DNA of 32,078 bases from Desulfamplus sp. (GTDB taxonomy: Bacteria; Desulfobacterota; Desulfobacteria; Desulfobacterales; Desulfobacteraceae), in assembly GCA_015232465.1 (NCBI GenBank), contig JADFZO010000036.1, positions 1 to 32,078 on the forward strand, in the 5' to 3' direction. This document shows, piece by piece, positions 7,485 through 20,407 of the stretch. The translations under genes were made by a program, and so were the position numbers. The notes beneath the pieces were generated by a model that made no database searches, was not told the DNA's origin, and saw only the letters and a program-made list of their open reading frames with translations. The first letter of the stretch is position 1; each line of letters begins with the position of its first letter.

Positions 7485-9398
7485 CTATTCCCCTAAAGCT
7501 ATCTTTAATTTTTCAGCCACACTTTTCGACATCCCGGGCAGGGCTGCAATCTCCTCAACAGTTGCCATTTTCATCGCACTTATACCCTTAAAATGGGCAA
7601 GTAGCATAGCTTTTCTCTTTTTGCCAACCCCTTCAACTCCATCTAAAATCGACAACTCAGCACGTTTTGCCCTTCTCTGTCTCTGAAAAGTTATCGCAAA
7701 ACGGTGAGCCTCATCACGCAGACGTTGAAGAAGGTAGAGAGCCTTAATTGACTGAGATGATTGCGTCATATTAATTGGATTACTTCTACCCCAAACATAA
7801 ACTTTATCGTGAGTTTCGCCTTTTTCCAAATCTTTTTTAGCAAGACCAATGACCTTAATTTTGCCCTTTAGTTCAGGTCTTTTTAGCTCTAAATCTGATA
7901 AAACAGCCATTGCCATTGAGAGCTGCCCCTTACCACCATCAACAACTAAAAGGTCTGGCAGATCCATATCCCCATTTTTTCCAATATTAGCATCACTTTG
8001 AATCGAAAATCGCCTTGTAAGTACCTCTGTCATATAGGCATAGTCGTCATGCCCTTTAACGCTTTTAATGATAAATTTACGATAAAGAGATTTTGCAAGC
8101 TCTCCATCTATAAAGACCACCATTGATGAGACAGGATCAGTGCCAGCAATATTTGAGTTATCAAAACACTCAATCCTTTTTGGATAATTTTCCATTCCAA
8201 GAGATTTTTGCAGCGTTGTTAGAATCTGGCTATTTTCGTTATTTTTTAAAATAGAGGTCTCAAGCTCTCTTTGTGCGTTGTTGATTGCCATATCAACAAT
8301 TAGCCTCTTTTCCCCACGCTCAGGCACTAAAATATTGACCTTTTTACCTTTTGCCAAGCTAAGAGCCTCTTCAAGAAGAGCTTTATCTTCAAAATTTTCT
8401 GCTGTAAGTATTTGTGATGGAATAAATCGTCCAGCTTGATAATACTGCTTTAAAAAAGCCTCCAATATTTTAGATGTTGCACTTTTAATAGTTGTGGTAT
8501 CTAAGTTATCGCTATCAACAACATTTAGATTTAACTTAACGTCAAATAGATGGTGCTCAGTGCCCACCACATAACCAGAGCGAACAAAAAGAAGCGTAAC
8601 CACTGCTCTGCCCTCTTTTTCGACAGAGGCTACAACATCTCTATCCATCAAATCTGCTGATACTGCAATCTGCTGCTCAAGACTTCTCTCAATCGCAAAT
8701 ATGGTATCTCTTATATAGGCTGCCTTTTCAAACTCCTGATTCTCAGCCTCTTGTGCCATCTCTTTTTTCAGTCTTTTTACCAAATCTGGCGATCTACCTT
8801 TAAGAAATAGGGCTACATCACCAACCATTTTTTTATAAATTTCAACTGGAACCTTGTTGCAACATGGTCCTAAACACGCCTTTATCTGAAACTGAATACA
8901 TGGTCGTGTTCGATTTTGAAAATTTCTATCGCGACATTTTCTAAGTTTAAATATTCGATTAACCTGCCTTAATACTGTTTTGATGTTATGCCCTGATGAG
9001 TATGGTCCAAAGTAGGTAGCACCATCATTTTTAATCTTTCTTACAACCTGCAAAAGAGGGTAATCTTCAGTAGTGTCGATACGAAAACAGGGGTAATTTT
9101 TTCCATCTTTTAAAAAGATGTTGTACTTAGGTTTATGCTTTTTTATTAAAGTGGCTTCAAGAATAAGGGCTTCGTGCTCTGTTGAGGTTATAATAATATC
9201 AAAATCTGCGATATTTTTAATAAGAAGAGTGGTCTTATTATCGTGCCCAGACTCTCGTACAAAATATGATGCAAGCCTCTTTTTAAGATTTTTTGCCTTT
9301 CCAACATAGATGATCCGCCCCTGAATATCTTTCATCAGATAGACACCAGGATCAGAAGGGGCAAGATCATATCGCTGTTTTATTAAATCAGATACCAT
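7485..9398 (-). CDS. uvrC: Excinuclease ABC subunit C
   Basis: UvrC makes the two incisions around a lesion handed over by UvrAB in nucleotide excision repair. The N-terminal GIY-YIG nuclease domain is intact (GVYLMKD, IIYVGKAKNLKKRL, about residues 17-46). Four cysteines follow with the spacing CX11CX7CX3C (CRDRN...PC...KACLGPC), the same spacing as the 4Fe-4S ligands reported in E. coli UvrC. A UVR motif (EFEKAAYIRDTIFAIE) is next, then the RNase H-like 3' nuclease domain (ECFDNSNIAG, LLVVDGGKGQ). Two helix-hairpin-helix units close the protein (LDGVEGVGKKRK, ALPGMSKSVAEKL). Length is 637 aa, normal for the family. The ATG at 9398 lacks a close ribosome site. The gene follows the acyl-CoA ligase by 23 bp. 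Confidence 0.96.
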   Translation of the reverse strand: MVSDLIKQRYDLAPSDPGVYLMKDIQGRIIYVGKAKNLKKRLASYFVRESGHDNKTTLLIKNIADFDIIITSTEHEALILEATLIKKHKPKYNIFLKDGKNYPCFRIDTTEDYPLLQVVRKIKNDGATYFGPYSSGHNIKTVLRQVNRIFKLRKCRDRNFQNRTRPCIQFQIKACLGPCCNKVPVEIYKKMVGDVALFLKGRSPDLVKRLKKEMAQEAENQEFEKAAYIRDTIFAIERSLEQQIAVSADLMDRDVVASVEKEGRAVVTLLFVRSGYVVGTEHHLFDVKLNLNVVDSDNLDTTTIKSATSKILEAFLKQYYQAGRFIPSQILTAENFEDKALLEEALSLAKGKKVNILVPERGEKRLIVDMAINNAQRELETSILKNNENSQILTTLQKSLGMENYPKRIECFDNSNIAGTDPVSSMVVFIDGELAKSLYRKFIIKSVKGHDDYAYMTEVLTRRFSIQSDANIGKNGDMDLPDLLVVDGGKGQLSMAMAVLSDLELKRPELKGKIKVIGLAKKDLEKGETHDKVYVWGRSNPINMTQSSQSIKALYLLQRLRDEAHRFAITFQRQRRAKRAELSILDGVEGVGKKRKAMLLAHFKGISAMKMATVEEIAALPGMSKSVAEKLKIALGE

Positions 9399-9421: not shown

Positions 9422-10903
9422 TTAAGCTCCGCTACCATAAAGCTCTTTAACCTTTTTACGATCAATAGAGCCATCGCTTTTTTGGGGCAAACTTTGGACA
9501 AACTCAACGTACCCTGGCTTTTTATATCGAGCAATACGTGATCCCACAAATTCGATAAGCTCTTTTGCCGATAACTCAGAGCCAGATTTTAGCACGCAAA
9601 CAGCTTTAACCCCTTCCCCAAATTTTGGGTCAGGGACACCAATAACGCTTGTAGCTTCAACGTCAGGGTGCTCTAAAATCACACTCTCAACCTCAGCAGG
9701 ATATACGTTTTCGCCGCCCGGTTTAATCAGCTCTTTTTCAGGTTTTCTACCCTCAAACCAGAGATAGCCATTAGAGTCAATACGACCAACATCACCAGTA
9801 AGATGCCAACCATTTCTGATGGTTGATGTGTCAAATCCCCCATTTTTCCAAAATCCTTGAAAGACAAGAGGACCGCGAACAGCAATCTCTCCGCTCTCAT
9901 TGCAAGGAACTATCGAACCATTTTCATCAACAATTGCCATATTTGAGATGCAGCACTGACGACCCGCAGATCCCGGGCACTCTAAAGCGTCAGATAGAGT
10001 TACAAATCCAGATGTCTCGCTTTGACCGTAGAGAATCCAGAATCTGCTTGATGTTTTTTCGCAAAATTTTGCAATATTTTGGGGTGAATCTATGCCAACT
10101 GTATGTTTTAGCGATGATATGTTGTAAGTTCTCTCTGCTTTCTCCATCTCCTCCATAATATTTGTTAAAATTGGCGGAAAGCTCGCCATGAGTGTAACTC
10201 TTTGATTCTCTATTATTTTAAGAGCCTCTTGAGCGTTAAATTTCTCCATAATCACATTTTTCCCACCCATCTGCATCACGGCAAGGGATAGATTCATGCC
10301 AGTTATGTGAAAAAGTGGCAGCATGTTTAAATAGGCATCGGATTTGCCTATATTCATTGTAAGACAGGTTTGAAGATTAGATGCAATGATGTTGTTGTGA
10401 GATAGAGCAGCTCCTCTTGGCTTTCCAGCAACTGCAGCAGTATAGATTAGGGTAAAAATATCATCTTTTTGGTGAAAAAATGGGGTAAAATTGCAAGATT
10501 CTCTCTTATCAAAACAAGATATATCAAGTTTCTTTTCACATTTTAAGGCATCGGCAATTTGGCTCTGAGTTGAGTCAAAAAATAGAATCTTTGAGTCAGA
10601 ATCTTGAAGTATGTATCCTAACTCATCTTGCGATAGCCGCCAATTTAACGGCACAAGTATCGCACCAATTGCAGAGGTCGCACCATAAAGAGCAAGATAT
10701 TCGTACCTGTTCATTGCAAGAGCTGCAACGCTTTGAGATGCTTTAACTCCACAGCGAGAGATTTCAGAGGCAAGTGAGTTTACCTCAATAAAAAATTGAT
10801 GGAAAGTGAGCGATTTCTCACCATCTACAATTGCTGTCTCGTCTGGAAACAGCATGGCATTTCTTTTGATCATATCATAAACAGAGAAGGTAGAAGCTGA
10901 CAT
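9422..10903 (-). CDS. AMP-binding (class I adenylate-forming) acyl-CoA synthetase-like protein with altered motifs
   Basis: This 493-aa protein has the ANL (acyl-CoA synthetase) fold. The LYGQSETSG box, HLTGDVGRIDSNGYLWFEGR (motif A7/A8) and KPGGENVYPAEVE hinge are clear. Two diagnostic sites differ from consensus. The phosphate-binding A3 loop, usually YTSGTTGxPKG, reads YTAAVAGKPRG (residues 154-164). The A10 catalytic lysine in the C-terminal TGK motif is replaced, because the segment reads SDGSIDR with Ser479 at the lysine position. In acetyl-CoA synthetase that lysine is required for adenylation but not for thioester formation. It is therefore either a divergent ligase subfamily or a protein with a restricted reaction. 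ATG 10903 has AGGAG about 10 nt upstream. It heads the minus-strand run leading into uvrC. The substrate is unknown. Confidence 0.85.
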   Translation of the reverse strand: MSASTFSVYDMIKRNAMLFPDETAIVDGEKSLTFHQFFIEVNSLASEISRCGVKASQSVAALAMNRYEYLALYGATSAIGAILVPLNWRLSQDELGYILQDSDSKILFFDSTQSQIADALKCEKKLDISCFDKRESCNFTPFFHQKDDIFTLIYTAAVAGKPRGAALSHNNIIASNLQTCLTMNIGKSDAYLNMLPLFHITGMNLSLAVMQMGGKNVIMEKFNAQEALKIIENQRVTLMASFPPILTNIMEEMEKAERTYNISSLKHTVGIDSPQNIAKFCEKTSSRFWILYGQSETSGFVTLSDALECPGSAGRQCCISNMAIVDENGSIVPCNESGEIAVRGPLVFQGFWKNGGFDTSTIRNGWHLTGDVGRIDSNGYLWFEGRKPEKELIKPGGENVYPAEVESVILEHPDVEATSVIGVPDPKFGEGVKAVCVLKSGSELSAKELIEFVGSRIARYKKPGYVEFVQSLPQKSDGSIDRKKVKELYGSGA

Positions 10904-17771: not shown

Positions 17772-18563
17772 ATGACATTTGAAAATCTTATTTTTGAAGT
17801 TGATAACACAATTGCAACTATAAAATTTAACAGACCCAAAGCTCTTAATGCTTTAAATCAGGCTCTATTTGATGAGCTTGATACTCTGATTAACCAAGTT
17901 GAAAAAAATAGAGATATAAGGGTTTTGATTTTAACTGGTTCTGGTGAAAAGGCTTTTGTTGCTGGTGCAGACATCTCAGAGCTTGCAAAGATGAATCCAC
18001 TTTTAACCAAAAGATTTTCAACTACTGGACAAAAGATATTTTCACATTTAGAGAGCCTTCCTATCCCTGTGATTGCTGCGGTAAATGGTTTTGCACTTGG
18101 CGGAGGCACAGAGGTTGCTTTAGCTTGCGATTTTATCTATGCCTCAGAAAAGGCTGTTTTTGGTCTGCCTGAAATTACACTTGGATTGATTCCTGGATTT
18201 GGCGGCACTCAACGTCTTGCAAGGCTTGTTGGCACAAATTTGGCTAAAGAGCTTATATTTACTGGAAAAACTTTTGGAGCAGAAGAGGCAAAGAGCTACG
18301 GCATTGTAAACAAAATCTTTCCACCTGAATCGTTGATGGAGGAGGTTCTTAAAACTGCTAATGCTATTGCTGCAAAGGGTGCTGTATCGCTCCGTGCTGC
18401 AAAAGAGGCTGTCAATTATGGTAGAGATATTGATCTTGAGATTGGCTGCCGTTTTGAGGCTAATGCTTTTGGTCTTTGTATGGCAAGTAAAGATGGAAAA
18501 GAGGGAACATCAGCATTTCTTGCAAAACGAAAACCAGATTTTACTGGAACTCTTGATGATTAA
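17772..18563 (+). CDS. Enoyl-CoA hydratase / crotonase family protein
   Basis: This 263-aa protein is of the crotonase superfamily, which stabilises an acyl-CoA enolate. The first oxyanion-hole segment is FVAGADISEL and the second is GFALGGGTEVALACD. Both glutamates of true hydratases are in place: E114 in GGGTEVAL and E134 in PEITLGLIPGFGGTQRL. It is therefore likely an active enoyl-CoA or 3-hydroxybutyryl-CoA hydratase, adding water to a trans-2-enoyl-CoA. It has a strong AAGGAG 8 nt before the ATG. The phenylacetate-CoA ligase type gene follows, which suggests a shared acyl-CoA degradation or fermentation role. Confidence 0.92.
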   Translation: MTFENLIFEVDNTIATIKFNRPKALNALNQALFDELDTLINQVEKNRDIRVLILTGSGEKAFVAGADISELAKMNPLLTKRFSTTGQKIFSHLESLPIPVIAAVNGFALGGGTEVALACDFIYASEKAVFGLPEITLGLIPGFGGTQRLARLVGTNLAKELIFTGKTFGAEEAKSYGIVNKIFPPESLMEEVLKTANAIAAKGAVSLRAAKEAVNYGRDIDLEIGCRFEANAFGLCMASKDGKEGTSAFLAKRKPDFTGTLDD

Positions 18564-18634
18564 TCTTTTAATTATACCCAAGTAATTTATCTTAAAAAAT
18601 CACAAGCTATAAAAGTTATAGGAGTAAAAGATCA

Positions 18635-19939
18635 ATGCCAATTTATAATATGGATTTTGAAACCATGCCCCGTGAGGCTCTTGAATCCATACAGTTAAGC
18701 CGCCTTAAAGCCACTCTTGATCGAGTTTATGCAACAGTGCCGTTTTATCGTGAAAACTTTAAAAAAGCTGGTATTACACCATCTGATATAAAAACTCTTA
18801 AAGACCTGCAAAAAATTCCTTTTACAGTAAAGCAAGATTTAAGAGACAACTACCCTTATGGTATGTTTGCTGTTCCTATGCAAAATGTGGTAAGAATCCA
18901 CGCATCTTCTGGCACAACTGGAAAACCTACAGTTGTTGGATACACACGAAGAGACATCGCAACTTGGGCAGAGCTTATGGCACGAAGCCTTGCTGCTGGA
19001 GGAGCTACAAGCCAAGATATTGTTCACAACGCCTATGGGTATGGACTTTTTACTGGGGGACTTGGCGTCCATTATGGTGCTGAAATGCTTGGGGCATCAG
19101 TAATTCCTGTCTCTGGTGGCAACACCAAACGTCAAATAATCATAATGAAAGATTTTAAGCCCACAATTCTTACTGGCACACCATCGTATATTCTTCATCT
19201 TGCAGAGGTTGCTCAAGAGATGGGTGTCTCATTTGAGGAGCTAAACTTTAAATCTGGAATTTTTGGGGCTGAGCCTTGGTCTGAAGATATGAGAGCTGAC
19301 CTTGAGGCAAAATTGCATCTTAAAGCCATTGATATTTATGGATTGAGCGAAGTTATGGGTCCTGGTGTCTCTATTGAGTGTTATGAGGCTCAAAAAGGTC
19401 TGCACATATTTGAAGATCACTTTATTGCTGAGATCATAAATCCAGAGACTGGCGAGTCTCTTCCTTACGGCGAAACAGGGGAGCTGGTTTTCACATCAAT
19501 CACAAAAGAGGCTTTTCCAGTTATCCGTTATAGAACAAGAGATATAACATCTCTAAATCCTGAGCCTTGCGTATGCGGACGCACGCACGTTAGAATGCAA
19601 AAGGTCTCAGGCAGAACTGATGATATGCTTATTATCAGGGGCGTTAATGTCTTTCCATCTCAAATTGAGAGCGTGCTGATGAAAAATAGAGAGATTCAGC
19701 CCCACTATCAGCTTGTGGTTGATAGAGTTGATAATCTTGATACACTTACAGTTATGGTTGAGGTTGGTCAGGAGTTCTTTTCTGATGAGATTAAGACTCT
19801 TCAAAATATGGAGCAAAAACTCTCTAATGATATTAAGGAGTATTTAGGGGTTTCAGCTAAAATTAAACTTGTTGAGCCAAAAACCATTCAAAGAAGCGAA
19901 GGAAAGGCTGTAAGGGTAATTGACAAAAGAAAAAAATAG
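18635..19939 (+). CDS. Phenylacetate-CoA ligase family protein (PaaK-like)
   Basis: This 434-aa adenylate-forming CoA ligase has the PaaK layout. The ATP loop is SSGTTGKPT (91-99). The motif [18 protein letters not shown] is followed by GELVFTS and RYRTRD. The metal-proximal [10 protein letters not shown] segment has the usual cysteines, and [17 protein letters not shown] is the hinge. A C-terminal lysine-containing region ends in [12 protein letters not shown]. PaaK ligases convert aryl- or arylacetic acids to CoA esters in the cytoplasm. In AT-rich Desulfobacterota such genes occur in multiple copies, often beside an ACT gene as here, and their substrates are mostly untested. AGGAG lies about 10 nt upstream of ATG 18635. 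Confidence 0.93.
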
Positions 19940-19975
19940 ATTGTCCATAAAATAATAACAAGGAGGTATTAACCG

Positions 19976-20407
19976 ATGAGGGTTGAGCAGATTTCAATTT
20001 TTCTTGAAAACAAGGCGGGCAGACTTGCTGAGGTTACAGCTATTCTAAGAGATGCCAATGTCAATATCAGGGCGTTATCTCTTGCAGATACAACAGATTT
20101 TGGGATACTTCGATTAATCGTAAATGATAATCAAACGGCTGAAGAAGTATTAAGAAGAGAGGGGTTTACAGTTGGTAAGACAAATGTTTTAGCAATTGAG
20201 GTAGAAGATGTTCCAGGTGGTCTTAATAATGTGCTTGATCCTCTCACATCTGCTGGAATTAATGTTGAGTATATGTATGCCTTTGCAAACACTAAGGGTA
20301 ACAATGCAATCATGATATTTAGATTTCATGATCTTGATAAAGCCATCTCAATTCTAAAAGATAATAGTATCAAAGTGATTAAAGGGGAAGATGTTTATAA
20401 CCTTTGA
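19976..20407 (+). CDS. Tandem ACT-domain protein (COG4747-type)
   Basis: This 143-aa protein consists of two ACT domains and nothing else. The first starts [20 protein letters not shown] (residues 3-68) and the second [20 protein letters not shown] (69-140). Each has the ligand-binding turn (NKAGRL, DVPGGL). Proteins of this type commonly sit directly after PaaK-like ligases and are thought to sense an amino acid or aryl acid, although direct evidence is sparse. A very strong ribosome site AAGGAGG lies 9 nt before the ATG. It is the last gene of the plus-strand run and is followed at once by a hairpin terminator. Confidence 0.88.

Follow-up and report, generated by a model that had tools for sequence, protein, structure and literature searches.

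A conserved ANL subfamily with altered A3 and A10 motifs in Desulfamplus: most likely PtmA2-like, thioester-forming half enzymes in a different gene context

The window, by which we mean the whole stretch of 32,078 nucleotides of Desulfamplus sp. DNA that was analyzed, carries a minus-strand open reading frame that begins with ATG and encodes a protein of 493 aa. Two Pfam domains were detected in this protein, AMP-binding (PF00501; E = 2.6e-66, 224 bits against a cutoff of 29.9) and AMP-binding_C (PF13193; E = 4e-17, 63 bits against a cutoff of 24.5). This two-domain match, together with an AF2 model that matches ANL structures, places the protein in the ANL superfamily. Among the best 25 of 103 NCBIfam models (MenE, the PRK06187 long-chain acyl-CoA ligase, and others), none exceeded its curated cutoff, the top score being 391 bits against 476. 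The features of the locus are as follows:

7485 to 9398, minus strand: uvrC, the next gene downstream, 23 bases off (from gene order)
9422 to 10903, minus strand: TAA-type ANL protein, predicted non-adenylating acyl-CoA ligase, 493 aa (from the ORF, Pfam, family alignment, and tree)
9458 to 9490, minus strand: A10 region LPQKSDGSIDR, residues 472 to 482, with D481-R482 conserved and no lysine after the glycine (from column counts)
9467 to 9469, minus strand: codon TCT for Ser479, where canonical proteins have the A10 lysine (from the sequence)
9707 to 9751, minus strand: A8/hinge GRKPEKELIKPGGEN, residues 385 to 399, the canonical length plus two residues, with E398 and N399 kept (from column counts)
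9722 to 9724, minus strand: Lys394, invariant in 112/112 TAA-type and found in 1/57 canonical sequences (from column counts)
9791 to 9799, minus strand: A7 TGD, residues 369 to 371, with Asp371 kept in 112/112 TAA-type sequences (from column counts)
10016 to 10027, minus strand: A5 GQSE, residues 293 to 296, with Glu296 kept and Gln294 invariant in the TAA-type group (from column counts)
10412 to 10444, minus strand: A3 phosphate loop YTAAVAGKPRG, residues 154 to 164, canonically YTSGTTGxPKG (from the sequence and column counts)

The order of the TAA-type gene and uvrC also occurs in genus-level relatives (L047, L048, L050, and L160) but not in L051; the contig of L049 ends at this point. Upstream in the window lies a dapB-like gene, divergent from the TAA-type gene. 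The second ligase gene of the window, of the PaaK type (position 18635), is on the opposite strand. It stands in a row with genes for an enoyl-CoA hydratase and ACT_8 (17772 to 20407, plus strand), forming an acid-activation cluster of its own some 7 kb from the TAA-type gene. Across the window genome there are 16 AMP-binding loci. The P-loop could be read by pattern in 10 of these (the pattern found no match in the other 6), and the window gene was the sole one with a TAA loop among the 10.

The canonical A3 P-loop, (T/S)SG(T/S)TGxPKG, is absent from the window protein, which reads TAAVAGKPRG there, with the P-loop lysine also replaced (Arg163). The first-pass annotation had reported this altered loop and the replacement of the A10 lysine by serine, and it had assigned them a span, 9467 to 10444, that runs exactly from Tyr154 through Ser479. 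Both sites read as it described, and the GQSE, TGD, and A8/hinge motifs that it called conserved are all present. Residues were counted by column in 82 clade A and 30 clade B sequences (together the 112 TAA-type sequences) and in 57 canonical sequences. Because the canonical set was picked with a TSG-like pattern, its A3 columns are partly preset (all 55 loci tried passed); A10 had no role in choosing it. A156-A157 was found in 112/112 TAA-type sequences, at columns where canonical proteins have mostly S and then always G. The A10 lysine was present in 56/56 canonical sequences reaching the site (the 57th is cut) and absent from 110 of the 112 TAA-type sequences, leaving two with lysine there. 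With counts of this kind, the two replacements are neither chance nor an alignment slip.

Eight columns (156, 157, 158, 159, 163, 242, 385, and 479) were at least 90% conserved in the 57 canonical sequences and kept in fewer than 15% of the 112 TAA-type sequences. Of these, 156 to 159 and 163 lie in A3 and 479 is the A10 lysine position, so that six of the eight fall at the two replaced sites. Column 385, which precedes the A8 Arg, changes from Asp to Gly; this change may have little meaning, since the consensus in PMC8388817 permits G or D there. E296, D371, E398, and N399 were kept in more than 95% of both TAA-type and canonical sequences (N399 in 112/112 of the former), and T155, G160, and P162 of the loop were retained in most TAA-type sequences. 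The two clades differ in other respects. Arg163 (81/82) and Arg482 (82/82) are nearly constant in clade A, whose A8 hinge is longer than canonical by two residues, whereas clade B lacks Arg163 in 29/30 and Arg482 in 27/30, and its A8 arginine is gone as well (P or T instead). A lysine conserved elsewhere in A10 would have spoken against the first-pass annotation; over residues 476 to 481, the part of the region checked, none was conserved (10/82 in clade A, 0/30 in clade B), and the invariant Lys394 sits in the A8 loop, outside A10. In the aligned sequences, then, the replacements are a conserved subfamily signature and not decay.

Some individual sequences depart from this pattern. L142 and L144 (clade A, genus g8) have a TAA loop yet keep the A10 lysine (QGKIDR), and they are natural intermediates for telling which of the two changes matters. 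The loop is further altered to TAAVDVIPRG, with the loop glycine lost, in L067, L085, and L086 (Tectomicrobia, Acidobacteriota), and L226, a clade B relative, has a half-way phosphate loop, TAGFGGRP. Lys394 was considered as a lysine peculiar to the group and rejected, as it also occurs in 4 of 16 added canonical ligases (L278, L283, L286, and L290). A lysine at this place is presumably used in the second half reaction by firefly luciferase and 4-coumarate ligase; a literature search on this point for these two enzymes found nothing.

Work on other ANL enzymes indicates what the affected residues do. In PMC8388817, changes to T161, G163, and K169 of 4-chlorobenzoate:CoA ligase cut activity 2,000-, 1,000-, and 4-fold, mutational effects are given for G166 and P168 too, and the A10 lysine is the key adenylation residue. 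According to PMC6122825, that lysine is fully conserved in a superfamily survey, the side chain of Thr165 contacts the gamma-phosphate, and K492A slows adenylation. In the thioesterification state, the same paper reports, this lysine moves out into solvent, and it is only then that Asn411 touches the alpha-phosphate. By motif, G163, T165, K169, and K492 would correspond to the replaced A157, A159, R163, and S479, and Asn411 to the kept N399. Judged by position, the losses would thus hit the adenylation half of the reaction, and the retained residues would be those of adenylate binding and thioester formation. The first-pass annotation had proposed an enzyme limited to either the thioester-forming or the reverse half reaction. 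The former fits these losses and retentions; the latter, if taken as adenylation in the backward direction, is less likely, since that direction presumably relies on the same residues.

Some of these observations would also fit a full acyl-CoA synthetase whose ATP site has been rebuilt. Here the TAAV backbone and Arg163 would bind the phosphates, and Arg482, Lys394, Lys462, or Lys486 would replace the A10 lysine. The motif shows strict conservation and no erosion, T155, G160, and P162 are mostly kept, clade A holds Arg163 and Arg482 almost without exception, and two members have lysine at 479. However, clade B mostly has neither arginine, L067, L085, and L086 are without even the loop glycine, the same changes occur in PtmA2, and a superfamily survey reportedly finds the A10 lysine fully conserved (PMC6122825), this lysine being given as key to adenylation (PMC8388817). 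We regard a complete synthetase as unlikely. The predicted structure does not bear on this choice. For the window protein, the AF2 model (pLDDT 89.8) matches ANL structures including 3IVR and PtmA2 (5UPS; TM 0.83), with TM 0.86 to 5x8f and 5bsr and 0.71 to 4fut and 5bur. We take the former pair to be thioester-stage and the latter ATP-bound; these labels and that of 5bsm come in part from entry titles. The thioester-like domain arrangement was considered as evidence and rejected, because the canonical control L098 folds alike (TM 0.90 to 5bsr, 0.72 to 0.74 to 4fut and 5bsm), which makes the arrangement uninformative.

The family extends beyond the window genus. Among 58 related genomes, the window's included, 44 had a match at E ≤ 1e-60, and 43 of these were counted as family (full-length matches scoring at least about 390 bits, or, in the window genus, fragments that could be joined; G047, at 231 bits, was excluded). 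Of 43 extracted copies besides the window's, 42 read [YH]TAA[VIM]xGxPRG and one TAAVQGTLRG. In an even draw across the phylum, 36/297 genomes carried the family, and of 240 genomes from the class to which an Afipia carrier belongs, that Afipia alone had it. Carriers include Desulfamplus, Desulfotignum, Desulfobacula, Desulfatitalea, Afipia, a Tectomicrobia, two Acidobacteriota MAGs, and a plasmid of Polaromonas JS666. Clade B was reached via a Sphaerisporangium sequence (L117), which had a match at E ≤ 1e-80 in 57/200 genomes of its order and in eight plasmid records. Two of these genomes (G713 and G750) had only a weaker match, reading TSG, and G601 had such a weak match beside a strong one. 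The loop was TAA in 36/38 clade B loci; of the other two, L226 reads TAGFGG, and L228 went unread because the pattern fell on the wrong place.

Relative to three genus relatives (L047, L048, and L023), the TAA-type gene had dN of 0.138 to 0.152 and dS of 1.10 to 1.19 (0.138 and 1.10 for L047), giving a dN/dS of ∼0.13 for same-genus pairs. The adjoining uvrC had a similar ratio (0.183/1.67, one pair); its comparison with L048, which was out of frame, was left out. The gene is under purifying selection and is maintained. Five Desulfamplus orthologs (L023, L047, L048, L050, and L051) carry in-frame low-complexity loop inserts near window residue 355, variable in length and in some cases tandem-repeat-like, and uvrC of L048 has similar ones; the expansion of coding repeats in Desulfamplus may merit attention. 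Inteins or broken genes were rejected as the cause of split matches in Desulfamplus, which reflect these in-frame inserts in intact ORFs.

In many relatives the TAA-type gene lies at either end of an operon encoding LivG, a 641-aa ligase, LivH, LivM, LivK, and LivF. The linked ligases have a canonical loop, TSGTTGLPKG, or LFYTSGTT[AS]LPKG, in which another residue takes the place of the second glycine, and they keep the A10 lysine (TGKIRR or TRKLRR). For linkage counts, loci under 6 kb were left out and duplicates (identical last 150 residues) dropped; requiring full flanks of 6.5 kb on each side set aside 33/80 clade A, 4/29 clade B, and 21/55 canonical loci. Of the full-flank clade A loci, 25/47 had another ligase gene on their strand no more than 8 kb away, versus 6/34 canonical controls (Fisher P = 0.0013, relatedness ignored), and 24/47 had a LIV permease, versus 2/34 (Fisher P = 1e-5, relatedness ignored). 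Linkage was weak in clade B, with a second ligase at 10/25 loci against 6/34 controls (P = 0.08) and a LIV permease at none. On clade B plasmids, a PaaK-type ligase lay near in 5/7 annotated loci (Massilia, Sphingomonas, R. oxybenzonivorans, R. jostii, and M. branderi) and not in those of DMU1 and Novosphingobium; the eighth record, from Nonomuraea, has an unannotated locus and falls outside the seven. On the Polaromonas JS666 plasmid, the TAA-type gene is two genes ahead of a canonical ligase.

In the window genome, the LIV operon is on contig C90, with a 641-aa ligase (L180:5104-7029) that gave 77% identity. Across the 58 related genomes, both ligases were found in 30, the TAA-type gene only in 13, the 641-aa ligase only in 3 (MAGs at most 72% complete), and neither in 12. 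In Desulfobacterota, the ligase and LIV operon often have a PAS/GAF sensor gene in front of them (L153:5346-7778; cluster 6 in L070, L151, L163, and others), which hints that acid uptake is regulated.

These surroundings would also suit a protein without catalytic function, such as one that senses or carries acyl-AMP, AMP, or acyl-CoA, or that serves the neighboring ligase or LIV transporter as a regulatory subunit. The changes hit both sites that handle ATP, a canonical ligase and a transporter are often linked, many relatives have the PAS/GAF sensor gene upstream, and in the window genus the gene sits beside uvrC. Yet the near-invariant E296, D371, E398, and N399 would have no obvious use in a protein that only binds, and PtmA2 is reportedly catalytic; we consider a noncatalytic role improbable. 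Quite improbable, too, is a half enzyme of another kind, using a different donor (an acyl phosphate, or acyl-CoA and AMP in the backward direction) or acceptor (a carrier protein, an amine, or water). The lost adenylation residues are uninformative on donor or acceptor, and the A8 hinge of clade A is two residues longer than canonical, but the A8 thioesterification residues are retained and the neighbors of relatives are often CoA-thioester genes (thiolases, hydratases, and acyl-CoA dehydrogenases).

Taking the observed sequence changes and their conservation together with the observed likeness to PtmA2 and the gene linkage, the protein is probably a non-adenylating, thioester-forming half enzyme of the PtmA2 type that uses acyl-AMP from another ligase. 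It would be a folded and selected ANL enzyme that has lost acyl-adenylate synthesis. A TAA-type protein of this kind would bind acyl-AMP released by a separate canonical ligase, accept CoA with its domains arranged for thioester formation, and release acyl-CoA and AMP. We infer from these same observations the loss of adenylation, the use of acyl-AMP in trans, and the identity of donor and acid. The canonical 641-aa long-chain fatty-acyl ligase in the LIV-type ABC transporter operon of C90 is a candidate donor, as it is orthologous to the ligase adjoining the TAA-type gene in many relatives. It cannot be the sole donor, since 13 of the 43 genomes with the TAA-type gene lack a 641-aa ligase. 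Other points also weigh against the half-enzyme reading: 22/47 full-flank loci are without a nearby same-strand ligase, the second ligase of the window is on the opposite strand, L142 and L144 combine the TAA loop with the A10 lysine, and support for a single origin with PtmA2 falls in the larger tree described below. A canonical donor would, moreover, be expected to complete the reaction by itself, which leaves the need for a second enzyme unexplained.

In a tree built without the A3 and A10 columns, clade A (33 rows, 3IVR included) and clade B (14 rows, PtmA2 included) formed one group (support 99/98) apart from 37 canonical rows and 3 rows of fatty-acyl ligases. When 16 high-scoring nonfamily ligases from the same genomes were added (53 canonical rows), support for the joint group fell to 88/43, with L286 and L290 adjoining; a rival topology, in which these two join clade A and clade B lies outside, was not rejected (p-AU 0.43). 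In all 16 added ligases, the two threonines of the loop and the A10 lysine are retained. Single origin is the simpler reading because clades A and B also share Q294, K462, and D481. One origin of clade A and the PtmA2 clade is thus favored, not proven, and two parallel losses, in clade A and clade B separately, are the less favored reading. The first-pass annotation had raised the idea of a distinct subfamily, which we likewise infer, with tree support of 100/99.

A full-text literature search, which did not extend to subscription papers, found no description of clade A and no paper naming 3IVR; in the matching passages, "non-adenylating" appeared only in citations of the PtmA1/PtmA2 work. The PtmA2 paper itself (Wang 2018, doi 10.1038/s41589-018-0061-0) may discuss relatives. 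PtmA2, not PtmA1, is reported to be the non-adenylating partner, which fits the order of the two in a sentence citing that work. In PMC6594144, adenylation and nucleophilic addition are reportedly divided between PtmA1 and PtmA2.

Database names such as long-chain fatty acid-CoA ligase and AMP-binding protein credit these proteins with an ATP-dependent activation that is probably beyond them. If confirmed, the two-enzyme split so far reported for PtmA1/PtmA2 would be common in sulfate reducers and many other bacteria, the way in which a reactive acyl-adenylate passes from one protein to another would become a testable question, and TAA-type enzymes would stand outside regulation by acetylation of the A10 lysine. 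More tentatively, and as a single joint proposal that we consider possible but doubtful, PtmA2 would be one twig of a broad half-enzyme group (Desulfobacterota, Pseudomonadota, Actinomycetota, Acidobacteriota, and Tectomicrobia), and anaerobic activation of fatty or aromatic acids would be divided, a canonical ligase passing acyl-AMP to a TAA-type enzyme in a relay beside a LIV-type acid importer.

Compared with known systems, the window protein shares its fold, A5, A7, A8, and two domains with canonical ANL ligases of the FadD13, feruloyl-CoA, and MenE type, which have a TSGTTGxPKG-type loop and the A10 lysine in the sampled sequences (57, and 16 added). The closest solved structure by sequence (E = 2.7e-119) is 3IVR, a "putative long-chain-fatty-acid CoA ligase" of Rhodopseudomonas palustris CGA009 from structural genomics. 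It is a clade A member with both replacements (HTAAVGGRPRG at A3, KGAIDR at A10); library copies hold 393 to 394 residues of the 509-residue chain, and its C-terminal domain is probably not resolved. PtmA2 of Streptomyces platensis (platensimycin biosynthesis; PDB 5E7Q, 5UPQ, 5UPS, and 5UPT) is the nearest characterized enzyme in the tree and has the ANL fold in common with the window protein. Its segments LYTAAMSGRQCG and LPRTVSGARDYDAL align to the window protein, with YTAAMSGRQCG at A3 and SGARDY at A10 (5E7Q). PtmA2 thus has TAA for TSG, both loop Thr lost, and the A10 lysine changed to Ala; the window protein likewise shows this signature of a TAA loop with the A10 lysine lost, and the two share Q294, K394, K462, and D481. 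PtmA2 differs in belonging to the separate clade B (loops such as TAAFDGRPN or TAAMSGRQC, against TAAVxGxPRG in the window's clade; DYDALD against [IVP]DRxxVK; A8 arginine missing), in serving a natural-product pathway, and in having 27 to 28% identity to the window protein in the structural match. The window protein and its relatives form a genuine and conserved subfamily, most probably PtmA2-like half enzymes that make the thioester, in a gene context different from that of PtmA2.
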